The position numbers were made by a program, and so were the translations under genes. Below the pieces are notes generated by a model that was not told the DNA's origin, searched no databases, and saw only the letters and a list, made by a program, of their open reading frames with translations. A stretch of DNA of 30,491 bases. Origin: a virus. Below, in pieces: positions 196-30,491 of this stretch (positions are counted from its first letter, which is position 1; the number at the start of each line of letters is the position of its first letter). The stretch spans positions 1 through 30,491 of the IMG/VR virus record IMGVR_UViG_3300045284_000094. The stretch is one strand, 5' to 3'.

Positions 196-206
196 GGTGC
201 GTTGCG
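196..206 (+). promoter_or_regulatory. GGTGCGTTGCG motif, copy 1 (before tRNA-like gene)
   Basis: First of eight copies of the 11-mer. The motif ends 29 nt before base 1 of the tRNA-like gene at 236. The flank ACGGT after the core is shared with copy 3 at 7214. The TTGCGA inside it could be a -35; no convincing -10 is seen at the usual distance here. Confidence 0.5.
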
Positions 207-235
207 ACGGTATTTCAGTATGAGAGAAATGGCGC

Positions 236-314
236 GCGCCCGTAGCTCAGGTGGATAGAGCGGTTCCTTCGAAGGGTCCAGGTCGCGGGTTCAAGTCCCG
301 CCGGGCGCGCGCCA
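236..314 (+). tRNA. tRNA-Arg-like gene with irregular anticodon arm
   Basis: A cloverleaf can be drawn: acceptor GCGCCCG (236-242) with CGGGCGC (302-308), D-stem GCTC/GAGC, T-arm GCGGG-TTCAAGT-CCCGC (285-301) and a terminal CCA at 312-314. The 5' sequence and the A at position 20 of the D-loop resemble bacterial tRNA-Arg. The anticodon arm is odd. Standard numbering gives loop TTCGAAG with a stem holding two mismatches. Shifting one base gives stem GGTTC/GGGTC (three G-T pairs), loop CTTCGAA and anticodon TCG (269-271, Arg), but leaves no base 26 and a 6-nt variable loop. The acceptor can extend to 12 perfect pairs (231-242 with 302-313), which puts CCA two bases late. It may be a divergent phage tRNA, a decaying copy or an attachment-site remnant. 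Confidence 0.65.
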
Positions 315-438: not shown

Positions 439-792
439 TCAGGCGACCTCGTCCTCTCGCAGGGCGCGGAGGAGGCGGATCGCCTGCTTCCGTTGATTTG
501 GCTTGAGGCTTTCCCAAATCGACCACGGAGCCTCCAAATCCAGGGGGTTGCGCATCAGTAGGTCGGCCGGCTCACATTGGAGAGCGTCGGCAAGGGCCTC
601 AAGCGTGTCTTGGCTATAGCCATATTCCCCGCGCTCGATCATCGACAGGTTCCCGACCGACATATCGACGCGCGCGGCAAGCTTTTCTAGCGTGAGGGTT
701 CTGTGTTTGCGCCACTGCCGGATGAAAGTTGGGCGACGCGGCGAGGATTTAAACCGGGGGAAGACCTTCTGCTCGATTCGCCTTTTAGGCAT
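439..792 (-). CDS. XRE-family phage repressor (CI-like)
   Basis: A DNA-binding regulator of 117 aa, inferred to be the lysogeny repressor. Residues 24-71 form an XRE helix-turn-helix: FIRQWRKHRTLTLEKLAARV, then SVGNLSMIERGEYGYSQDTL and EALADAL. The following CEPADLLMRNP is typical of short Rhizobiales XRE regulators; there is no peptidase (LexA/CI-type) domain, so induction would not be by self-cleavage. The ORF is open much further upstream, but that stretch overlaps the divergent gene and is ignored. The start at 792 gives MPKRRIEQ; an in-frame ATG at 822 would add 10 residues. Neither has a good ribosome site. It lies divergent to the Cro-like gene at 887, with operators between them, the classic switch layout. 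Confidence 0.85.
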   Translation of the reverse strand: MPKRRIEQKVFPRFKSSPRRPTFIRQWRKHRTLTLEKLAARVDMSVGNLSMIERGEYGYSQDTLEALADALQCEPADLLMRNPLDLEAPWSIWESLKPNQRKQAIRLLRALREDEVA

Positions 793-838
793 AGCGAATT
801 TTGGCCGAGGCGATGGGGGCATATCCACACATGTGGAA

Positions 839-878
839 TGAAATTTCACTTGCGCAGAAATTTCATTTGGGCTAAAAC
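839..878 (+). promoter_or_regulatory. Switch operators and rightward Cro promoter
   Basis: TTGCGC (850-855), a 17-nt spacer and TAAAAC (873-878) form a rightward promoter 8 nt before the Cro-like ATG. The operator TGAAATTTCACTTGC (840-854) covers the -35 and a second AGAAATTTCATTTGGGC (857-873) fills the spacer. The first is an exact inverted copy of the operator at 136-153. The palindrome CACATGTG (828-835) lies between these sites and the repressor start. Repression of early transcription by the leftward XRE protein follows by analogy with lambdoid switches. Confidence 0.65.
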
Positions 879-886
879 CCTCCACC

Positions 887-1108
887 ATGCGGCTCGCTGA
901 GTATCTAGAGGCCAAGGGGATCAAGCGCATTGATTTTGCGCGGGAGATCGGCGTCACACCCGGCTGGATCACGTCGCTTTGCGACGGCAGCGGATGGCCA
1001 TCCCGAGACGTTGCCGAGAAGATCGCTGCGGCGACCGCGGGCGATGTCACGCCGGACGATTTTCTGCCGGGCCCCGACGCGCCAACACCCGCCGAGGCCC
1101 GCGCGTGA
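887..1108 (+). CDS. Cro-like small HTH regulator
   Basis: A 73-aa protein, first gene of the rightward early unit. Residues 1-50 fit a Cro/YdaS-type helix-turn-helix: LAEYLEAKGIKRIDFAREIG, then VTPGWITSLCDGSGWPSRDV, AEKIAAAT. The acidic/proline-rich tail (DVTPDDFLPGPDAP) is what small phage Cro-like proteins often carry. No Shine-Dalgarno precedes the ATG and the putative -10 ends 8 nt upstream, so the mRNA may be leaderless or nearly so. The role (shutting off the repressor and committing to lysis) is inferred from the divergent arrangement. Confidence 0.75.
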   Translation: MRLAEYLEAKGIKRIDFAREIGVTPGWITSLCDGSGWPSRDVAEKIAAATAGDVTPDDFLPGPDAPTPAEARA

Positions 1109-1310
1109 TCGGGGAACTGCAGCACTATTCCCACGGCGCCCTCCCGGAGCACTCAACGGGAAAATGGCGCGGCCATCGTTGCACATCTTTGGTTCCGGGC
1201 AAGCGCTGCCCTGCCATGCGCGCGGGCGTGACGGTGAATCATGGGGACACACGAAACCGTGAAGGAATAGGCCTAAGTCGGTACTTTGGTAGCGTCGGGA
1301 GCGTCGGGTC

Positions 1311-4298: not shown

Positions 4299-4733
4299 AT
4301 GAAGGTTCTGGCCGAGATCACGTCGGATCAAGGGTTGCTGGACGCGCTGCGGGCGCAGGCCGACACGCTTGACGTGACGCGCGATTCCATAGACCGCGAG
4401 GCCGGCTTCACGCCAGGCTACGCCTCAAAGCTCCTCTCGCCACGCCAGATCAAGCGGTTTGGCGGCATGTCCCGCTATGCCCTGATCGGCGCGCTGGGCG
4501 CCAAGCTGGTCCTGGTTGAGGAGGTTCGAATCAGGACGAAACTGGAAAAACGCCGCGTGAAGCCCGGCATGCTTGCCGTTAGCGTCGGTCGCGGCAAGCA
4601 TCGCATGATGAGCAAGCGGTTTCTGCGCAAGATCGCGCCGCGCGGCGGCAACATGCGGGCTCACAATCTCACGCCGCGCCGGCGCAAACAGATCGCCCGC
4701 AAGGCCGCAAGGGCGCGCTGGGGGCGGAACTGA
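4299..4733 (+). CDS. Putative DNA-binding protein, HTH plus basic tail
   Basis: A 144-aa protein beginning 3 nt after the previous stop. Residues 20-75 (ADTLDVTRDSIDREAGFTPG, YASKLLSPRQIKRFGGMSRY) read as a helix-turn-helix that recognises sites through the YASKLL helix. The C-terminal half is very basic (KRRVKPG, RMMSKRFLRKIAPR) and ends RKQIARKAARARWGRN, a motif seen at the tail of small DNA-binding phage and antitoxin-like proteins. It is likely an early or middle regulator; its target is unknown. The stop overlaps the next start (TGATG). Confidence 0.65.
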   Translation: MKVLAEITSDQGLLDALRAQADTLDVTRDSIDREAGFTPGYASKLLSPRQIKRFGGMSRYALIGALGAKLVLVEEVRIRTKLEKRRVKPGMLAVSVGRGKHRMMSKRFLRKIAPRGGNMRAHNLTPRRRKQIARKAARARWGRN

Positions 4734-4930
4734 TGCGACAAAGCAAGCTTAAACGGTTCACGCGCGTGCAGGACTTCGGCCGCGAACTGCGCGGCCTCGG
4801 GGGCTTGCAGACATCGCACATCCGCGCGCTTAAGGGCAGCAAGATCGGACCAGCCAATGCAGGCCGACGGCTGAGCAGTGCTGAGCGCAAGGCCATCGAA
4901 GATCAGATGCGCAAGGATGGCAAACTGTAG
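4733..4930 (+). CDS. Small protein of unknown function, end of early operon
   Basis: A 65-aa basic protein whose ATG shares its A with the preceding stop. Sequence such as FGRELRGLGGLQTSHIRALK and SSAERKAIEDQMRKDG suggests helices but matches no family I recognise. It is the last gene of the rightward early unit; 22 bp further the leftward cassette ends head-on. Confidence 0.5.
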   Translation: MRQSKLKRFTRVQDFGRELRGLGGLQTSHIRALKGSKIGPANAGRRLSSAERKAIEDQMRKDGKL

Positions 4931-4952
4931 GGGTGCGGCCGCAAAAGGCGCA

Positions 4953-6349: not shown

Positions 6350-6430
6350 ATCGCATGTCGCGTGTCAAGCAATCAATTAGGGCAGCGGAGATGCGCGTCT
6401 AAAGCCCAATAACCGCGCGGATTTGCAAAC

Positions 6431-6441
6431 GGTGCGTTGCG
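6431..6441 (+). promoter_or_regulatory. GGTGCGTTGCG motif, copy 2 (before small terminase)
   Basis: Same 11-mer, with ACGGTGCGTTGCGAGCA shared over 17 bp with copy 5 at 13031. No start codon sits 30 nt downstream. The small terminase ORF is open through the motif, and a TTG start at 6437 would lie inside it, so the real start is probably later. Confidence 0.45.
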
Positions 6442-6559
6442 AGCAAGCCACACATTCGGGCAATCCATCGCGCGTCCCGCATCGCGCCCGCGCTCTTTTC
6501 CTTCCGCAGGGAGCAAAGCGACCGAGGACCAGCGAAGCGAGCAAAGGCGAGCAAGCGCA

Positions 6560-7120
6560 GTGCAGGTCACACAAGCTTCGCAGTTGCCCGCTGTTCAACC
6601 AGCTCACCAGCGCACCAACGAGCCTAAGCCGGTCAAGATCACCGGCAAGGTCCGTGACGCCATCAACGCCATGGTGTGGGACGCGCTCCCACGCAAGCAG
6701 GCAGCCGAAAAGGCTGGTATCAGCGAACACGGTCTCTACAAGGCTCTGCGCAAGCCTCCCGTGCGCGCGTTCTATCTCAGCGAGTTGGAGGTGTTGCGAA
6801 CCAGCGAACGAGCGCGAAACATTCACACGCTTGCCGAGGTTCGCGACCAGACCACCAACCAGATGGCGCGGGTGCAGGCCGTCAAGGCGCTCGAACAGCT
6901 TGAAGACGTTCAACAATCCGCAGGCGCTCGGCACCAGTCGCCAGGCTTTGTGATCAACATCATCAGTCCGAGCGGCGGCGGCACCTTAAGTGCGCATCAA
7001 GCACAGATCGAGCCTAAGACGTTGAAAACGCTCGATGCAGACAGTTATCAGGCTGATAACGAGGCCCCGCCCGGGGGTGGGGGCGGGGGGAAAATCGGCG
7101 CGCGCTCCGACCGCTGGTAA
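6560..7120 (+). CDS. Putative terminase small subunit
   Basis: From GTG 6560 the product is 186 aa. Its core (KITGKVRDAINAMVWDALPR, KQAAEKAGISEHGLYKALRK, then AFYLSELEVLRTSERARNIH) is a homeodomain-like helix-turn-helix followed by long helices, the layout of small terminases that recognise phage DNA for packaging. Proteins of this type sit near terL in alphaproteobacterial phages, here 2 kb upstream. The C-terminus has GFVINIIS and ends in a six-glycine run coded by a G-rich tract. The start is uncertain: the frame is open to TTG 6437, but that region looks non-coding and contains copy 2 of the 11-mer. A non-terminase DNA-binding role remains possible. Confidence 0.6.
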   Translation: MQVTQASQLPAVQPAHQRTNEPKPVKITGKVRDAINAMVWDALPRKQAAEKAGISEHGLYKALRKPPVRAFYLSELEVLRTSERARNIHTLAEVRDQTTNQMARVQAVKALEQLEDVQQSAGARHQSPGFVINIISPSGGGTLSAHQAQIEPKTLKTLDADSYQADNEAPPGGGGGGKIGARSDRW

Positions 7121-7213: not shown

Positions 7214-7248
7214 GGTGCGTTGCGACGGTTGTCTGACATCTGCATCGT
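7214..7248 (+). promoter_or_regulatory. GGTGCGTTGCG motif, copy 3, with possible -10
   Basis: The motif (7214-7224) ends exactly 30 nt before the ATG at 7255. TTGCGA (7220-7225), 17 nt and CATCGT (7243-7248) would be -35 and -10, placing transcription start about at the ATG. The flank ACGGT is shared with copy 1. It would serve the terminase operon (7255-10626 and beyond). Confidence 0.5.
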
Positions 7249-10626: not shown

Positions 10627-11075
10627 TCCGCGTCGTCGAAGGCCCGCTGATTTCGCAACCCCTCATCTGGAATCTCGTATTCGAGCGCAAGTCGCTGTCG
10701 TGGTGGTCGCATCTCGCGCTCGGCCGCTACAAGCATGTGCGCGCCTACGGCTATGTGCCGTTCCTGCATGTCTGGCAGTTCGTCGACATCGGGCTGCGCG
10801 GCTTCGACGTGTTCGTGGCCGCCGACGGCGCGCCGGCCAATGCCGTGATCAGGACATGGATCGAGCACGCCGACGTGCTGCGGATTGCGCCGCGCCGCGA
10901 CGGCGTCCGCCGCCTGCCGGTGCTGGGCTGGTGCGTGCCGGCGATGCGCCGGCTGACCGGCGTTCCCGGTGGTGCGTTGCGGCCCGACGCCTTTTTCGCA
11001 GAGTGCCTTCGAAACGGTGCCACGCCGTTCGAGGCCATCGATGGACGCCCCGAAATATCGACAGCCCGCGCTTGA
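10623..11075 (+). CDS. Conserved phage protein after terL
   Basis: A 150-aa protein of a type often found beside podovirus terL genes. Recognisable blocks are LSWWSHLALGRYKHVRAYGY (25-44), WQFVDIG, LGWCVPAMRRLTGV (101-114) and GGALRPDAFFAECLRNG (116-132). H38 and C104 recall a cysteine-hydrolase-like fold, but no activity can be claimed. GTG start overlapping the terminase stop. The codons for G117-R120 are copy 4 of the 11-mer, with codons (GGT, TTG) that are rare in this gene. Its last 35 bp overlap the next gene. Confidence 0.6.
   Translation: MIRVVEGPLISQPLIWNLVFERKSLSWWSHLALGRYKHVRAYGYVPFLHVWQFVDIGLRGFDVFVAADGAPANAVIRTWIEHADVLRIAPRRDGVRRLPVLGWCVPAMRRLTGVPGGALRPDAFFAECLRNGATPFEAIDGRPEISTARA
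10971..10981 (+). promoter_or_regulatory. GGTGCGTTGCG motif, copy 4 (inside a gene)
   Basis: The copy lies in coding sequence, reading Gly-Ala-Leu-Arg. It shares GCCC after the core with copy 6 (16963). TTGCGG, 16 nt and CAGAGT (10999-11004) would place a transcript start about 30 nt before ATG 11041, leading into the portal gene. Confidence 0.35.
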
Positions 11076-12899: not shown

Positions 12900-13258
12900 C
12901 CGACGAAATCGACGACGACGCGATCAAGGAAGCCTGGGACGCCATCGCGCGCACGCCCGCCGGCGCCGTGGCGTACGGCCACATGCAGCGGGTCGCGATC
13001 GGGCTGCTCGCCACCCCCGACCCCTCCGACGGTGCGTTGCGAGCAGAATTCGGCCGCCGCAGTCTCGCGCACGATCTGATGCGGCTCATGCGCAAGGGAA
13101 TCGACGAAAGTGGCGGACGATCCGGCAAATCCAGCGGCAAGCGCAGCGAGCGCCTCCTCGTCTTCCGCGTCCGCGAGCCCGTCAGCGTCAGCCGCCGCGA
13201 ATCCGCCCGCGACCACATCATCCGAACAGACCCGGAGCTCAAGCCCCGGGGCGGCTGA
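12896..13258 (+). CDS. Bbp19-like small phage protein
   Basis: A 120-aa protein beginning with an ATGA overlap. Residues 12-75 (EAWDAIARTPAGAVAYGHMQ, then EFGRRSLAHDLMRLMRKGID) resemble the short Bbp19-type family found between portal and capsid genes in BPP-1-like phages. The remaining 45 residues are Arg/Ser-rich and overlap the scaffold gene in another frame for 149 bp; they are probably not conserved and may reflect loss of an earlier stop. Residues GALR (46-49) are coded by copy 5 of the 11-mer. Confidence 0.6.
   Translation: MTDEIDDDAIKEAWDAIARTPAGAVAYGHMQRVAIGLLATPDPSDGALRAEFGRRSLAHDLMRLMRKGIDESGGRSGKSSGKRSERLLVFRVREPVSVSRRESARDHIIRTDPELKPRGG
13031..13041 (+). promoter_or_regulatory. 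GGTGCGTTGCG motif, copy 5 (inside a gene)
   Basis: This copy reads GGT-GCG-TTG-CGA in frame (Gly-Ala-Leu-Arg). It shares 17 bp with copy 2. TTGCGA, 17 nt and CAGTCT (13060-13065) would start a transcript about 40 nt before the scaffold GTG, feeding the capsid genes that are needed in quantity. Confidence 0.35.
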
Positions 13259-22729: not shown

Positions 22730-24333
22730 TGTTCGATTTGATGCAGCAGCGCGATGACGGCCCGCTCACGTTCGCCGAGCCGAACGAGGGTGCGAGCTAC
22801 GGGCAATATCTCGCGACGGCTGCGCAGTTGTTTTCGACGCCGCAGGCCGCGGTCACGCATATCGGTCTCCAACTCGCGCGCGATCCCGCCGTCTACGGCA
22901 ATCTGTTCCGGTCGGCCGAGCGGCAAACCATGCTGGTCGACACCATCACATCCGGCAATATCGCCACCGAGCAGGCTTACGACCGGCGCATCGCTACGAT
23001 CAAGACAGCAACCGGCATCGAGTTGCAAAATCCGCTCCGGGGCGGCCTGACCGCGCAGATGATCGAACGCGCGCGCGCAGGCGACCTCGCCGAACCTGAC
23101 AGCGGGACAGACCCGGCCGCGCTATTCGATCAGCAGCTTGCGCAACTACGCGAGAAGCATCCCGACAAGCTCGACGCGCTGACCTTCGGCGACATCGGCG
23201 AGGAGGCGCGCGCCATCGCCAAGGGCGCCGAGCACGAATATGAGGCCGCGCGCAAGAACCCGAAACTCGACCCGGCCACGAGCCTCGTCACGCAATTCGG
23301 CGGCGCGATGTGGGGCCAGCGCCGCGACCCGCTATTCGTCGGCTCGCTGTTTGCCGGGCCGACCTCGGCGGTGGGCAAGACGGCGGTGGCGCGGGTGGCG
23401 ACCTCGGCGGTGTTCCAGGGCCTCTACAACGTCGGAATTTCGGCACTCGAACAGCCTGCCGTGCAGGCATGGCGCGCGGAGATCGGCGCCAAGTCTGGCG
23501 TGATGCCCGCGATCGAGAACGTCGGCATGGCGTTCCTGTTCGGGCTGATCCCCGGTGCGGCGTTCCGCGGTATCCACGAGGCGAGCCAGGCGGCGGTGCG
23601 GCGCACCCTCGCCGGCGTGCCGGAGCGCGGCGACACGGAAATAGCCCTTAAGGCGGTCAGCAGCGAGGAGCCGCAGGCTGCCGCCGTCCGCATGGGCGAG
23701 GACATGGCCGACGCCGATAAGGCATTCCTGCCGCGCAAGCCCGCCGATGTGGCGCCAGAGTTGCACGACGACCTGACCGCTGCCGCGCTGAAACGCGCGG
23801 ACGATCCGGTCAATCAGCCGTCGCCCGAGGCGGTGGCGTATGTTGAACGCACTGCCGATCAACGCGAGATGGATTTGCTTCGCCGCACCATTCAGCAGGG
23901 CGAGGAACAATTGGCGACGGTCCAAGGTGAGCGCCCGCGTGCGGTTTTTGAACAAGAATTGTCCGGCCTTCGGCAAAAACTGGCCGACATGGAGCGCCGC
24001 GCCGAGCCTGACCCCGAAATCGCGGCCCGCGTCGCCGAGGCTCAGCCGCAAAATCTCCACGAGGCCCAGATGGCGGCCACCGAGGCCATCGAGGAGCGCG
24101 GCAACCGGCAGGCCATTGCGCGGACAACCGAGGAATTGGAGCGAGATAGGTTGCCACCGCCCGAACCGCCGCCGGAAGGCGTGAAGCCGCCGCCCGCGTC
24201 ATCGAAAGACCCGCTCGACAAAATCCCGATAACCCGCGACGACGGCACGCCGACGCTGGTTTCGGCACAGCAGGCAGCGCGCGCTGGCGAGAAAGAGACA
24301 AAACTTGCCGCGCTGATCCGGGAGTGCAAATGA
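22729..24333 (+). CDS. Internal virion/ejection protein with membrane-prone middle
   Basis: A 534-aa protein. Residues about 200-240 (DPLFVGSLFAGPTSAVGKTA to GLYNVGISALEQ) and 264-280 (GMAFLFGLIPGAAFRG) are hydrophobic and could cross the host inner membrane after ejection. From about 380 on it is coiled-coil (LRRTIQQGEEQLATVQGERP), then Pro-rich near 490. No catalytic motif is seen. ATG 22729 overlaps the preceding stop. It is likely one of three proteins sharing the job done by T7 gp15-16. Confidence 0.65.
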   Translation: MFDLMQQRDDGPLTFAEPNEGASYGQYLATAAQLFSTPQAAVTHIGLQLARDPAVYGNLFRSAERQTMLVDTITSGNIATEQAYDRRIATIKTATGIELQNPLRGGLTAQMIERARAGDLAEPDSGTDPAALFDQQLAQLREKHPDKLDALTFGDIGEEARAIAKGAEHEYEAARKNPKLDPATSLVTQFGGAMWGQRRDPLFVGSLFAGPTSAVGKTAVARVATSAVFQGLYNVGISALEQPAVQAWRAEIGAKSGVMPAIENVGMAFLFGLIPGAAFRGIHEASQAAVRRTLAGVPERGDTEIALKAVSSEEPQAAAVRMGEDMADADKAFLPRKPADVAPELHDDLTAAALKRADDPVNQPSPEAVAYVERTADQREMDLLRRTIQQGEEQLATVQGERPRAVFEQELSGLRQKLADMERRAEPDPEIAARVAEAQPQNLHEAQMAATEAIEERGNRQAIARTTEELERDRLPPPEPPPEGVKPPPASSKDPLDKIPITRDDGTPTLVSAQQAARAGEKETKLAALIRECK

Positions 24334-26852
24334 GCGCATTCAACAATTGCATTCTGTCCGCGCAGAAGCAGGGCGAGATTTCCGAGGAGCAGGCGGAATC
24401 TCTAATGGCCCGCTATGCCGAACACTTGCGTGCCCGTGCCGCGGCTGGCGACCGCGACCCGGAAGGTGCAGCCAAGGCGGCGATGGCGAGCGAGATGGAT
24501 CAAGAGGCCGCGATCAAACAGGCCATCGCGAACGGACAGATCGCCGCGCAGAACCGCATCCGCGCCTTCGCCGAGGGCTATCGCAATCTCAATGGTAATT
24601 CCAGCGCGTTCGAGGCGTTCGCCGCGCTGATGGAAAGTCAGGCGCAGGGCACGACCTCTTGGCGCTATCGCGCCGAAGCCATTGCTCGCATGACACAGGC
24701 CGAAGTGGCGGACTATCTATCGAATTTCCGGCGCTCATTTTTCAGCGGCAAGCGCATGGACAAGCCGGGGATCGAGAATGTCGTGCGCGAGATGCGCGGC
24801 GAGGCGACCGGCAGCCCGCAGGCGAAGGGCATGGCCGACGCCATGGAGCAGGCATTCGAAAAACTGCGCCAGAAGTTCAACGAGGCGGCCGGCTTCGAAG
24901 CCATCGGCAAGCTCGATTACGGGTTTCTCCCACAGCATCACAGCCCGGCTGCGTTGCTCAATGTGCCCGGCAAAACGGCGGCCGAGAAATACGCCTTCTG
25001 GCGCGACAGGGAACTGCCGCGGCTCGACCTCGACAAGATGAGGGACCCGCTGACCGGTGGCCACCTGACGCCGGAACGGCTCGAGGAGGTGCTGCGGGCC
25101 TCGTGGAACCGCATCGTCACCGGCGGATGGTCCGATCGTGAGCCGTCGGCGGCGCCGTTCGGCACCGGAGCGCTCGCCAAGCAGCGCAGCGACCATCGGT
25201 TCCTGCATTACAAGACGGCGGATGATTGGATCGCGTCAGACCGCGAATTTGGCAGCGGCGACCCGACCAAGGCGATGTTCCAGCACATCCGCAACATGGC
25301 GCACGATATTGCCGCCATGGAGACATTCGGGCCAAACCCGAATGCGACCGTAAACTGGATGAAGCAGGTTGTGCAGAGCGAAGTCGCCAAGTCGATCACC
25401 GGCGAGCCGTCGCTACACACCGGGAAGGCAAACGAGGATACTGGCAACCGGCTGGCAAACCGGCTGCAAGCCATCTATGACGCGGTGCGCGGACCTGAAA
25501 TTATCTCAAGCCGGCTCGCCGCAGGATTCGCCGACGTGTCGAACGTGCTGACTTCGGCCTATCTTGGGGCAACGTCAATTCTTGCCGCGGCCACCGACCC
25601 GTTCATCGACAATGCCGCGCGCCGGCTCAACGGTTTGCCACACTGGAAGGCACTCACCGGCATCGTGCATGCGATGCGCAGCGCTCAGACTCGCGAGCAG
25701 GCGGTGCGCTCCGGGCTCGGCATGGACGACTTTCTGCATATCATGGGCAACGAGGCCCGCTATGCCGGGACGCTCGGCGGTCATGAAGTGACAAAATGGC
25801 TTGCCGACCGCACCGTGACGCTCAACGGCCTCAACGCTATCACGCAAGCCCGCAAGCACCGTTTCGGGATCGACTGGCAGGCGATGGCCGCCGACCACGC
25901 GGGCGAGACCTGGGCCGAACTTGGCAACAGCAACGCCTATTTCCGACGATCAATGGAAAATTACGGCTTCACCGAAAAGGACTGGAACAACCTGCGCAAG
26001 ACCGAACTGCATATCCCAGCCGAAGGCAGCGCCGGCTATCTGCGGCCCGCCGATGTCAAGAACAGCGACCTCGGTGTGCGCTATCTCGGGATGATCCTGG
26101 GCGAGACCGAGCGCGCGGTGCCGACGTCGACCATGCGCTCGCGCTCGATCGTCACCTCGAACCTGCAGCGCGGCACGGTCTGGGGCGAGATCATCAATAG
26201 TGGCCTGCAATTCAAGTCGTTTGCGCTGTCGTTCACCGGCCTGCAGATGCAAGCGATCAAGATGGAACTGAATCAGGGCGTTGCCCAGGGTGCCGCCTAC
26301 GCCGCGGCGCTATTCATCCCGCTCACGCTCGGCGGCGGCATGGCCGTGCAGTTGAACAACATCGCCAACGGTAAGGATTTGCAGCCGATGGACCCGACCA
26401 CGGGGCAGGGCCTCAAATTCTGGCTGCAAGCACTGTTCAAGGGTGGCGGCCTCGGCCTCCTCGGCGATTTCATTTTTTCCGACCTCACCCGGTTCGGCGC
26501 CACGCCGGCCGAGCAACTGAGCGGCCCGACAATCTCGCTCGCGTCCGACGCCATGTCGCTGACGGTCGGCACCGCGCAAAAGGCGCTCACAGGACAGAAA
26601 ACCCACTTCGGTCGAGAGGCCGTTCGCAAGGTCGCCCGCAATGTGCCGATCATCTCGTCGCTGCCCTACACGCGGGCGGCCTATCAGCGCCTCGTGGTCG
26701 ACCAGCTCCAATATCTGACCGATCCCGACGCGCACAAATACTTCCGCGAGCAGGAAAAGCGCATGCTGCGCGAGACCGGGCAGTCGTATTTCTGGCGCCC
26801 CGGCGAGACCAGCCCCGAGCGCGCGCCGGAATTCAGCCAGGCGGTCAAGTAG
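24330..26852 (+). CDS. Large internal virion/ejection protein (gp16-like)
   Basis: An 840-aa protein. KLDYGFLPQHHSPAALL (about 190-206) is a block recognised in podovirus internal virion proteins, often in the non-enzymatic part of gp16-like proteins. Hydrophobic segments near 655-678 (YAAALFIPLTLGGGMAVQLN) and 705-715 could insert in the inner membrane. GGAG sits 6 nt before ATG 24330, which overlaps the previous stop as ATGA. Here the lytic transglycosylase domain usual at the N-terminus of T7 gp16 is missing. Confidence 0.7.
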   Translation: MSAFNNCILSAQKQGEISEEQAESLMARYAEHLRARAAAGDRDPEGAAKAAMASEMDQEAAIKQAIANGQIAAQNRIRAFAEGYRNLNGNSSAFEAFAALMESQAQGTTSWRYRAEAIARMTQAEVADYLSNFRRSFFSGKRMDKPGIENVVREMRGEATGSPQAKGMADAMEQAFEKLRQKFNEAAGFEAIGKLDYGFLPQHHSPAALLNVPGKTAAEKYAFWRDRELPRLDLDKMRDPLTGGHLTPERLEEVLRASWNRIVTGGWSDREPSAAPFGTGALAKQRSDHRFLHYKTADDWIASDREFGSGDPTKAMFQHIRNMAHDIAAMETFGPNPNATVNWMKQVVQSEVAKSITGEPSLHTGKANEDTGNRLANRLQAIYDAVRGPEIISSRLAAGFADVSNVLTSAYLGATSILAAATDPFIDNAARRLNGLPHWKALTGIVHAMRSAQTREQAVRSGLGMDDFLHIMGNEARYAGTLGGHEVTKWLADRTVTLNGLNAITQARKHRFGIDWQAMAADHAGETWAELGNSNAYFRRSMENYGFTEKDWNNLRKTELHIPAEGSAGYLRPADVKNSDLGVRYLGMILGETERAVPTSTMRSRSIVTSNLQRGTVWGEIINSGLQFKSFALSFTGLQMQAIKMELNQGVAQGAAYAAALFIPLTLGGGMAVQLNNIANGKDLQPMDPTTGQGLKFWLQALFKGGGLGLLGDFIFSDLTRFGATPAEQLSGPTISLASDAMSLTVGTAQKALTGQKTHFGREAVRKVARNVPIISSLPYTRAAYQRLVVDQLQYLTDPDAHKYFREQEKRMLRETGQSYFWRPGETSPERAPEFSQAVK

Positions 26853-26856
26853 CGGC

Positions 26857-26867
26857 GGTGCGTTGCG
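26857..26867 (+). promoter_or_regulatory. GGTGCGTTGCG motif, copy 7 (head of the structured gap)
   Basis: The motif begins 5 nt after the ejection gene stop. TTGCGC, 16 nt and CAAGAT (26885-26890) fit the same promoter pattern. Transcription would begin near 26898, in a gap with no protein gene, so it may drive a structured RNA. Confidence 0.4.
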
Positions 26868-26986
26868 CCGCTTCCCGCCCCAGCCAAGATGCACGCGCTC
26901 TGTCCCATTGAGCTCGCCGGGCCGCGGGTGCCAGGTCTTCGGACCCTTCGGACCTACTGAGTGCCCACCCGGCGGTGAAAATAGGT

Positions 26987-27017
26987 GCGCCGGTCAGGTG
27001 ATCAGACCTGCCGGCGC
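26987..27017 (+). other. 12-bp hairpin with one bulge in the long gap
   Basis: GCGCCGG-T-CAGGT pairs with ACCTG-CCGGCGC around loop GATCAG. The stem is the strongest in the gap. There is no T-run after it, so it is not a classical terminator. Confidence 0.6.
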
Positions 27018-27062
27018 TGATCGCGGTGCCGAGGACTAAAAGCCGCGACCGAATGCGCCCGA

Positions 27063-27077
27063 TGTAACACTGTTACA
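27063..27077. promoter_or_regulatory. TGTAACACTGTTACA operator-like dyad
   Basis: Perfect 7-1-7 inverted repeat in a locally AT-rich spot inside a GC-rich gap. Its form matches binding sites of dimeric repressors such as TetR-family proteins. The regulator is not identified; a host factor controlling the tail-fibre region is one option. Confidence 0.45.
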
Positions 27078-27350
27078 TTCCCCGCGCAACGACCTGCCAA
27101 GCGCTGTCCCGCAACGATCACGGGCCCGGCCGATCCGGGGGCAAAGCGCGGGGCTATTCCCCGGCCCGGGCAAACGCGGACGGCGCTATGCCCGCATCCA
27201 GGACTTGAACGGCAACCTCCTCTGCATGGGCTCATGCAGGCCGGGCGTCTGGCCCACGACACGGGCATCCTGGGTATACGCGCTATACCGGTCTCCTCAG
27301 CACCGCTTGGCTCTCTCAGCCGGGATAGCGGGGAGCGGGCTATGGGTGAC

Positions 27351-27384
27351 GGTGCGTTGCGGCTCGGCCGCCCGTGGGCATCCT
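27351..27384 (+). promoter_or_regulatory. GGTGCGTTGCG motif, copy 8, with possible -10
   Basis: The motif (27351-27361) ends exactly 30 nt before the tail-fibre ATG at 27392. TTGCGG, 16 nt and CATCCT (27379-27384) give the same layout as copies 3 and 6, one base offset. Confidence 0.5.
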
Positions 27385-27391
27385 GCCGGTC

Positions 27392-30300
27392 ATGCGCAGG
27401 TTCGCCGCTGGCCTTCTCCTCGCTCTCGCGCTGATCGCCCCTACGGCGGCGCTGGCCCAGGTCTGCCCCGCCGTCGCGGCGCTGCCCGACAGCGAGCGCC
27501 GCGTAGCCTATGCGCCGTCGGCCTCGACGGGCCCATTTTCGGTCACGTTCGCCCTATTAGGCGACGGTACCGACTATGGCGCATGGGCAGAAGTGTTCCT
27601 CAATGGCGTGCGCCTCACGCCGGTCACCGATTGGCAGCTGACGATCCCGAGCGGCACGCTGGCGACCGCATGCCGGCCGATCACCAATGCCTCGATCACG
27701 TTGACCAATGCGGCCACCGGTACGCTGCAGATCGTCGGGGCGCGCCGGCCGCGCCGGACCTCGCAGTTCCCGGAGAACGCCGGGGTCTCGGCGCGCAACC
27801 TCAATCAGGTCATCACCGACATCACGGCGCAGAACCGCGAGACCTGGGACAAGATCAACGACGTGAGCGGGCGCGGGCTGTTCTCGCAACCCGGCAACGT
27901 GCTTGGCGCGCTGCCGCTGCCCACGTCCTGCGCCAACCGTTTCCTCGGCTTCGATGCGACGGGGCTGATACCGCAATGCCTTGCTGGCGGCGCCGGCAGC
28001 GGCAATGTCGTTGGTCCGCTGACCTCGACCATCGGCAACGTCGCGATCTGGAATAACGCGACGGGAAGCCTGCTGGCGAACAGCACCGTTCCCATTACGC
28101 GCCTGACCGCGCTTACCGATACCGACGTGTTCCTGGTTGGCGGTCAGAGCAACGCCATCACATGGCCATCGCTCACCGGCCCGACCACGCCAGCCGGCAA
28201 AGTGCTGCAATACGCCAGCGGCGTGATTTCCGATCTTTCCACGATCGGCGGGCCGTGGACGGAGTTCGGGCTGACTTGGTTCAATGCGACTGGGCGGCGC
28301 GTCCTGTTCGTCATGGCCAGCATCACCGACAGCGGTCAAATTTCAGTCAATGCCGGCGCTGGCGGCAGTTGGGACATCGGCGTTCCCGGCTCTGATTACT
28401 TTCTCTCGCTTCCGCTGCTGACCAGCGGTCTTGCCGCCGCTACCGCGGCCGGCTACTCGCCAGTCTATCGCGGTGTCTTGTGGGCGCAGGGCGAGAACGA
28501 CGCGCACGGCATCAATATCGGCACCGTGGGCGCGACCAAGGCCAACTATAAGGCCGGCCTCGTCGCCATGATCGCGAAGTATCGCGTCGACCTCGCGCTG
28601 CCGGCGATGCCGTTCTACATCTTCCGAACCGGCGTCAACACGAGTGAATTTCCCAGCACCGGCTATCAGCAGGTCCAGGCCGCACAGGAGGAAGTCGCGG
28701 TCGCCGATCTCAATACGCGCGTGGTGTTCTGGGATGCGGCGGATTATCCGACCCTCGGGATGACGACTGGAGCGCCGCCGATCCACTACACGCAAGCCGG
28801 CTACAATCGCATGGGGCAGGTCGGCGCCGCCAATATCCTCTCCGCAACGGCACCCGACACCTTCCGTCCCAACGGCGACAATCTTTATTGGTCGCGCGGC
28901 TCGGTTCTCATCAGCCCGAATCTTTCGGCGCTGCCGGCTGCCGCCGGGCTTCCGCTTCTTCGGCTGGCGAATGCCGATGCGATACAGACGCTCCAGCAGA
29001 TCGATTCCTTCGGAGCGGCAGTCGGCTCCTTTCTGTTGTTCCGTCATGCCAATGGCACCGGGATAGCGCCAACCGCCCTGACCTCGGGTCAGCTGATCGG
29101 CGGCGCCATATTCGACGGCTATGGCGCGACCGCATTCCCGGCGTCTGCCAAAGCCGCGCTGTTCGGCTGGGCTGCGCAGAACTGGAACGATGTCAATCAG
29201 GGCACGTTCCTGACGCTTGAGACGACGCCCAACAATTCGACCACGCGGACGGAGGCCGTTCGCATCCAGAACAGCGGCGGCGTGTCGGTGGGAACGACGA
29301 TTGATCTAGGCATAGGAACGCTTCTGGCGCTCAACAAGCTGTCTGCCGGTCTCAATGGAACGGTGACCGGCCAAGTCATCATCAACGGCCTTACGTCCGG
29401 CTCGGTCGTGCAGACATCGCAGGCCGTGGCTGGAACGCCGACCGTGACGTGGGGCACCAACAGCGGAACGCCGGTCGTTACCGCGACCGCTCCGCTGGCA
29501 ATCGCTGCCGCGACTGGCAATCTCACGATTTCGGCCATTCCGCTTTCATCCCTGGCCACGCAGGCGGCCAACACCGTCGTCGGCAACGCCACGGCGGGTG
29601 CGGCCGCGCCGACTGCGCTGTCGATGCCATCGTGCAGCACGGCCGCCAGCGCGCTCAATTGGACGACCAATACCGGATTCGGTTGCAACACATCGATCAC
29701 CGCCGCCGCCGTCCCGGTTGGCGGCATTACCGGCCTCGGCGCAAACGTCGCGACGTTCCTTGCAACGCCATCGTCCGCCAATCTCGCGGCGGCCGTTACG
29801 GATGAAACGGGCACGGCGGGAAATTTGGTGTTCTCTAATTCGCCGACCTTGGTGACTCCTGCGATTACGACCAGCGCGACAATCACCAGAACCGGCGTGG
29901 GCGTGACTTCCGCCGATGGCGCTGTCCTTCAAAACACAACCGCTGCCGCCGCTGGCGCGCAGCAGTGGTCACCGCGAACGCACTATATCGCCCAAGGATG
30001 GAAAACCGACGCAACTGCTGGATCGCAGACCGTCGATGCCATCGTAGAATTGCAATCAACTCAAAGCACGTCTACGCCGTCTGCTTCACTTGTTACGTCG
30101 ATCCAATTAAACGGCGGCGGTTACATTCCAATCACAGGAGTTGGGCTGCTCGCCAGCAACGGCAATGCTTTTCTGCAGTTCAATAGTCCGACATCGAAAA
30201 ACTCAAACCTGATCTATTCGGCAAATTCCGTCAACAAATGGTACGTCCAGAATCAGGGCGATACGGCCGACGCCTACCGCATCCTCAACAGCGATGCGAA

Positions 30301-30491
30301 CGGCAACGCTGTCCAGATGTCTCTTGCACAGGTCGGCGCCGCTACATTCGCCGGATATGTGCAAACAGGGGCGGTTGCAGTTGCTTCACTTCCGGCCTGC
30401 GGTGCGGGCACCAAAGGCGCGCGCCATTTCGTAACCGACAGCAATGCGGCATCGTTTACGGCCGGGATCGGCGCCGTCGTTGCGGCAGGCG
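27392..30491 (+). CDS. Tail fibre/spike with signal peptide and SGNH esterase domain (partial)
   Basis: The frame stays open from ATG 27392 to the window edge (1033 codons, no stop). Residues 1-23 form a signal peptide (RRFAAGLLLALALIAPTAAL, Ala-X-Ala). Residues 40-180 look like a virion-attachment module (GPFSVTFALLGDGTDYGAWA, ENAGVSARNLNQVITDITAQ). From 245 to 475 there is an SGNH/SASA-type esterase: GGQSN with Ser253, WAQGEND (364-370) and IHYTQAGYNRMG with His465. It likely deacetylates host surface polysaccharide. After that come Ala/Thr/Gly-rich shaft repeats (NTVVGNATAGAAAPTALSMP, then FSNSPTLVTPAITTSATIT) seen in alphaproteobacterial phage fibres. No ribosome site precedes the ATG. 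Confidence 0.8.
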   Translation, partial: MRRFAAGLLLALALIAPTAALAQVCPAVAALPDSERRVAYAPSASTGPFSVTFALLGDGTDYGAWAEVFLNGVRLTPVTDWQLTIPSGTLATACRPITNASITLTNAATGTLQIVGARRPRRTSQFPENAGVSARNLNQVITDITAQNRETWDKINDVSGRGLFSQPGNVLGALPLPTSCANRFLGFDATGLIPQCLAGGAGSGNVVGPLTSTIGNVAIWNNATGSLLANSTVPITRLTALTDTDVFLVGGQSNAITWPSLTGPTTPAGKVLQYASGVISDLSTIGGPWTEFGLTWFNATGRRVLFVMASITDSGQISVNAGAGGSWDIGVPGSDYFLSLPLLTSGLAAATAAGYSPVYRGVLWAQGENDAHGINIGTVGATKANYKAGLVAMIAKYRVDLALPAMPFYIFRTGVNTSEFPSTGYQQVQAAQEEVAVADLNTRVVFWDAADYPTLGMTTGAPPIHYTQAGYNRMGQVGAANILSATAPDTFRPNGDNLYWSRGSVLISPNLSALPAAAGLPLLRLANADAIQTLQQIDSFGAAVGSFLLFRHANGTGIAPTALTSGQLIGGAIFDGYGATAFPASAKAALFGWAAQNWNDVNQGTFLTLETTPNNSTTRTEAVRIQNSGGVSVGTTIDLGIGTLLALNKLSAGLNGTVTGQVIINGLTSGSVVQTSQAVAGTPTVTWGTNSGTPVVTATAPLAIAAATGNLTISAIPLSSLATQAANTVVGNATAGAAAPTALSMPSCSTAASALNWTTNTGFGCNTSITAAAVPVGGITGLGANVATFLATPSSANLAAAVTDETGTAGNLVFSNSPTLVTPAITTSATITRTGVGVTSADGAVLQNTTAAAAGAQQWSPRTHYIAQGWKTDATAGSQTVDAIVELQSTQSTSTPSASLVTSIQLNGGGYIPITGVGLLASNGNAFLQFNSPTSKNSNLIYSANSVNKWYVQNQGDTADAYRILNSDANGNAVQMSLAQVGAATFAGYVQTGAVAVASLPACGAGTKGARHFVTDSNAASFTAGIGAVVAAG

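Follow-up and report, generated by a model that had tools for sequence, protein, structure and literature searches.

The question raised by this locus is what occupies the gap at positions 26853-27391, which runs from the stop of a virion gene to the ATG of a tail-fibre gene at 27392 and bears copies 7 and 8 of a repeated 11-mer at its flanks. The analysed window is the whole of IMG/VR record IMGVR_UViG_3300045284_000094, 30,491 bases in length. Its genes include a repressor-like HTH gene (439-1152, minus strand), a DUF1376 replication gene and genes for the terminase large subunit, a portal protein of the podovirus head-to-tail connector type, the major capsid protein and tail proteins; the phage looks like a temperate, short-tailed one, from a lineage known mainly from metagenomes. 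No close DNA relative of the window was present in the named phage collection, and a search for DNA homologues of the gap in named phages found none. The sequence-only reading had described the gap as the longest gene-free stretch of the genome. This holds for the late region, where the next gap is 210 nt, but not for the early part, which has longer stretches without confident ORFs. An early-region stretch of this kind holds a conserved small-terminase-like gene (6413-7117) that was missed by codon bias. The features discussed below are as follows, L075 being a related viral locus.

24324-26852, plus strand: upstream neighbour, gene for a large virion structural protein (phrog_684, E 1e-141)
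26857-26867, plus strand: 11-mer copy 7, with the 9-mer GTGCGTTGC at 26858-26866 as the -35-like element of the putative cassette promoter
26886-26891, plus strand: -10-like box AAGATG of copy 7 (score 4.23, top 1.1% of random positions)
26937-26954, plus strand: two tandem copies of CTTCGGACC, inside a stretch of ~90 nt that is absent from L075
26982-27094, plus strand: conserved RNA core with hairpins A, B and C, defined by the match to an L075-only model, fold z-score and pair counts
26987-27017, plus strand: hairpin A, GCGCCGGUCAGGU...ACCUGCCGGCGC, nearly unchanged in L075
27018-27051, plus strand: hairpin B, three pairs of which are altered on both sides relative to L075
27054-27088, plus strand: hairpin C, which includes the dyad at 27062-27078
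27096-27351, plus strand: 3' part of the cassette, conserved (z 7.5 and 0 of 300 shuffles when aligned globally with L075)
27351-27361, plus strand: 11-mer copy 8, -35-like element of the putative tail-fibre promoter, with the -10-like box CATCCTGC at 27379-27386
27392-30491, plus strand: tail-fibre gene with an N-terminal signal-peptide-like segment, extending past the end of the record (homologues in 45 viral loci)

The gap was confirmed, and it is both non-coding and conserved. None of its six frames shows coding bias, which was +0.14 to +0.52 in 9 of 10 reference genes, and no frame is common to the gap and its counterpart in L075. A decayed gene was also considered and rejected, given the lack of coding bias and of any credible protein match in relatives. 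The tandem 9-bp repeat and the dyad (ATGTAACA-C-TGTTACAT) that had been described are both present. Folding of the whole gap, by comparison, lies within the range of dinucleotide-shuffled controls (z -0.65 on the plus strand and -1.10 on the minus strand) and was dropped as evidence; the expected excess of structure is confined to one part. A sliding fold scan of the gap picked out approximately 26951-27100, and the segment 26960-27110 has a z-score of -3.60, with 0 of 200 shuffles equally stable, a value that alone is only suggestive because the scan took in a few dozen windows on two strands.

A homologue search recovered 45 loci with the tail-fibre N-terminus. L075 alone among them has a full equivalent of the arrangement, namely the motif, 465 nt without genes, the motif again and the tail fibre. 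Its gap is homologous to that of the window (85% identity over 48 nt, E 2e-7, and three shorter collinear matches) and has the same fold architecture (z -3.92, 0 of 200 shuffles). When a covariance model was trained on L075 only, its best non-self match was the window core 26982-27094, at full length and with 34.6 bits (E 1.2e-5 within the window and 3e-4 across 746 kb). Between the two viruses hairpins B and C keep their pairing despite changes on both sides, the covariation that had been proposed as a check. Another record, G002, has the promoter followed by the first two hairpins, A and B (74% identity to L075 across 69 nt), and is reached by the L075-only model with an E-value of only 0.63; a further model, R2, is no independent test of G002 since it includes that sequence. 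In an alignment that takes in G002, 14 of 34 pairs show both-side changes and 95% of cells pair; 0 of 500 shuffles reached this count and slid controls gave at most 3, although such counts lean toward structure because the alignment was fitted to it. The bias is greatest in hairpin C, where a plain sequence alignment would set the letters differently. Even without hairpin A, the B and C part out-folds 297 of 300 shuffles in the window and 298 of 300 in L075.

Homology, structure and paired changes are thus computed results, and since a fold with changed letters recurs in a distantly related virus, the core is probably a real RNA that is put to use. The proposal of a new phage RNA is favoured by the L075 gap, by the both-side pair changes and by the promoter fit of copy 7, but it narrows to ~114 of the 539 bases that are structured and has one full and one partial homologue. 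A closing helix, P0, is doubtful, as the predicted start falls within it in L075 and G002. Several further candidates were set aside. A match to hairpin A in Sinorhizobium pSymB lies within a CDS in one of two plasmids and was judged to be chance, because the hairpin-A pattern recurs in long open frames of four contigs (L175-L178), which lack the promoter motif and are not matched by the model. L174, picked up by the promoter-plus-hairpin pattern, was likewise attributed to chance.

The gap does not reach the gathering score of any Rfam 15 family, and the Rfam comparison that had been suggested returned nothing for it at E-values up to 5. L075 has sub-threshold hits only, to the SAH riboswitch (17 bits versus 37) and to Termite-flg (19.5 versus 40).

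Conservation extends beyond the structured core. The 3' part (27096-27351) has no structure beyond chance (fold z -0.41) and no reading frame common with L075. In aligned columns, the window and L075 are 82% identical in the RNA core and 78% in the 3' part, both generous figures because they come from a gapped global alignment with gaps omitted. The tail-fibre proteins of the two viruses are 59% identical, and their fourfold sites 46% identical; composition alone predicts 41.5%, so synonymous sites are saturated. The virion-side upstream genes are unrelated. The most economical interpretation is that the non-coding cassette is under selection. Alternatively, phages may have exchanged the cassette more recently, which would itself imply mobility.

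How such an RNA would be transcribed is suggested by the 11-mer. It occurs in exactly 8 copies in the window, all on the plus strand, whereas shuffled controls, with one mismatch allowed, gave a mean of 2.2. The larger relative records contain 7-8 copies of the core 9-mer GTGCGTTGC, almost all in one sense (8/0, 0/8 in a reversed contig, 8/0 and 7/0); in L006, two divergent copies of the motif each face their own gene. Across 19 relative loci, an ATG lies exactly 31 nt after the 9-mer in 16 of 52 cases, and the next best of all 9-mers reaches 4. Among 116 distinct sites of the motif RGTGCGTTGC, the spacing to ATG is 31 nt in 41, 33 nt in 13 and 32 nt in 6; the pattern was noted as well at window positions 7215, 16964 and 27352. 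Alignment of the 41 sites revealed a second conserved box at -12, -11, -8 and -7 from the A of the ATG, and a C at -1. Sites without an ATG at +31 often read on as AAACGGGAG...ATG, that is, a short leader with a ribosome-binding site. In one named phage, Microcystis phage Mwe-JY08, two genes are preceded at the same distance by the variant GTGCGTTGA.

This computed pattern predicts that the 11-mer serves this phage lineage as a -35 promoter element and that many late mRNAs are leaderless: by the -35/-10 geometry, the first transcribed base would be the A of the ATG. The -10 matrix for scoring copies 7 and 8 was trained on a set that excluded the window. Against this consensus of relatives copy 7 is well founded as a promoter fit, which supports the earlier suggestion that it would transcribe the gap, with a predicted start at ~26898. 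The -10 box of copy 8 scores 7.09 (top 0.015% of random positions); the -10 sequences of the L075 and G002 RNA promoters score poorly on the family matrix. No sigma-70 region 4 protein matched over the cut-off in 7 records, which may be incomplete, while controls matched; PF00940 (T7-type polymerase) also gave 0 matches in the 7 records, and its positive controls gave none either. An early protein of 144 amino acids (window 4299-4733), without a Pfam match and conserved in G002, G007 and a MAG contig, is a candidate activator of the late promoter. In the open-access literature, no paper was titled on this promoter. The closest known repeats are the SAS elements of Cluster K mycobacteriophages, GGGATAGGAGCCC, which lie right at the start codon and have been proposed to act in translation initiation (PMC3203893). 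They too are short, asymmetric and repeated around a dozen times in each genome, and most share one orientation and lie 5' of gene starts. The 11-mer differs from them in sequence, in standing 31 nt before the ATG, in its -10-like partner and in its promoter-like behaviour. By the 31-nt rule, late mRNAs should be leaderless in a wide group of phages, Mwe-JY08 among them, a point that may outrank the gap itself in general interest.

The place of the cassette between virion and tail genes is a variable slot, whose neighbours in relatives were labelled from their translations. In the closest relative, L002, whose virion protein is 64% identical, the two genes are ~42 nt apart with one promoter copy between them; standing just past the stop and 31 nt before the ATG, it matches copies 7 and 8 at once. 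In L029 the slot contains a gene for a secreted 120-aa protein together with a second copy of the promoter. Elsewhere it holds an 87-aa ORF (L070), an HNH-like gene (L081), another gene (L078) or a small secreted protein (L053), and in L071 and L061 a different leader common to both (74% over 154 nt). In G002, the gene 3' of hairpins A and B encodes a small secreted protein rather than a tail fibre; together with the unrelated upstream genes of L075, this indicates a module that is not tied to one neighbour. With nothing, small genes or another structured leader in the slot of relatives, the RNA looks like a moron-style cassette. As with morons, it is present or absent among relatives at one place, and its own promoter would be copy 7, with counterparts in L075 and G002; a simple scan found no terminator of its own in the cassette. 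L075 does have a strong terminator-like hairpin (4914-4942, 13 pairs followed by TTTTTT) within the first tail-fibre codons, and the scan saw no such hairpin at the equivalent position of the window. The L071 and L061 leader (L071 4539-4700, L061 4823-4980) has a long hairpin, CUCCAGGCGCCCGG/CCGGGCGUCUGGAG in L071, that can likewise be drawn from the differing letters of L061, though the minimum-energy fold of L061 is another. It is possibly a second phage RNA.

Taken together, these data suggest the following explanation. Copy 7 would start an RNA at ~26898 that carries the three-hairpin core and the conserved 3' stretch, and copy 8 would start a separate, leaderless tail-fibre mRNA beginning at the ATG of the gene. 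The cassette, in a slot that in relatives takes different small modules, often accompanied by a copy of the promoter, would then be a moron with an RNA product, which may base-pair with RNA of the host or the phage, or bind a protein. We infer transcription, start points and independence from the tail-fibre gene from these patterns, and consider the chances about even that the product is a non-coding RNA made late and acting apart from that gene. The +31 position coincides in L075 and G002 with the first G of GCCGG in hairpin A, which would put the start of the RNA at this hairpin, and stable small RNAs often begin at a hairpin; in the window, ~90 nt including the tandem repeat lie between the predicted start and hairpin A.

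A less likely reading is that the RNA is a cis-acting 5' leader that controls tail-fibre expression, with a tail-fibre mRNA starting at copy 7 and copy 8 giving a second, leaderless mRNA. No terminator was found between the core and the tail-fibre gene, so the RNA may run on into it; the 3' part is conserved up to copy 8 as well, and the window and L075 share the tail fibre as downstream gene. Such a leader, however, would be bypassed by copy 8, hairpins A and B stand 5' of another gene in G002, and the RNA is absent from most tail-fibre relatives. We favour a role of its own for the RNA because copy 8 gives the tail fibre its own, better-scoring promoter and because the L075 and G002 RNA would start at hairpin A.

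Other readings do without a functional RNA. It is improbable that the palindromes are protein-binding or recombination sites acting as DNA: the dyad at 27062-27078 is perfect, hairpin A is a 12-pair inverted repeat and the slot is a hotspot of module exchange, but part of the stem of hairpin B is wholly changed yet still pairs, which a protein-binding site would not need, and a promoter lies directly 5' in L075 and G002. A decayed or merely inserted module without function would explain its absence from L002, with 42 nt between the motif-bearing genes, and from most relatives; we regard this as very unlikely in view of structure kept in the window and L075 and of non-coding sequence that can be aligned beside saturated synonymous sites. 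Hardly credible is a short leaderless or non-ATG peptide, for which an ATG at 26890 opens 23 codons: the predicted transcript start is downstream of that ATG, no frame has coding bias and none is common with L075.

The nearest functional parallel found for an RNA with its own role is provided by AgvB and AsxR, Hfq-binding anti-sRNAs at the moron site of lambdoid prophages (PMC4104026). RNAs of this class are 51-60 nt long, have conserved 3' ends and are encoded 3' of PR' (PMC4104026). Both cases concern phage-borne small RNAs in an accessory-module slot; compared by description, they have no evident sequence relation. The gap core, at ~110 nt, falls outside that size class with its conserved 3' region, and it has three hairpins, lies between virion and tail-fibre genes, has another promoter and no terminator that could be found. 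A new RNA family that spreads as an RNA-only moron, with the lineage promoter, three hairpins and late action in trans, in a lineage making many leaderless late mRNAs from one bipartite promoter, is a tentative reading, at less than even chance. Phage small RNAs are hardly known outside a few model systems, and morons have mostly been described as protein genes. Here, an RNA cassette conserved within a variable slot, together with a promoter whose location would predict the first transcribed base, offers exact and cheap predictions of transcript ends and of leaderless tail-gene mRNAs.

Other copies of the motif showed features of their own. In copy 1, the +31 position and the start of a tRNA-Arg gene (236-310; window 197-310) are no more than 1 nt apart, as though the tRNA were transcribed with no leader; the match may be chance because the -10 score there is unremarkable. 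Copy 2 is followed by a leader conserved in three phages (window 6463-6520; L028 9067-9110; L022 ~1776-1740, minus strand) that has GCGCTCTTTTCC or similar, resembling an antitermination boxA, 5' of a small-terminase-like gene. Two copies in the head module, at 10972-10980 and 13032-13040, have no ATG at +31; their equivalents in L016, L019, L021 and L024 are at conserved places, and they are possible internal promoters for portal and scaffold genes. Finally, the tail-fibre proteins of the group open with a segment resembling a cleavable signal peptide, MRRFAAGLLLALALIAPTAALAQ (window 27392-27460), which is unusual for a phage tail fibre.
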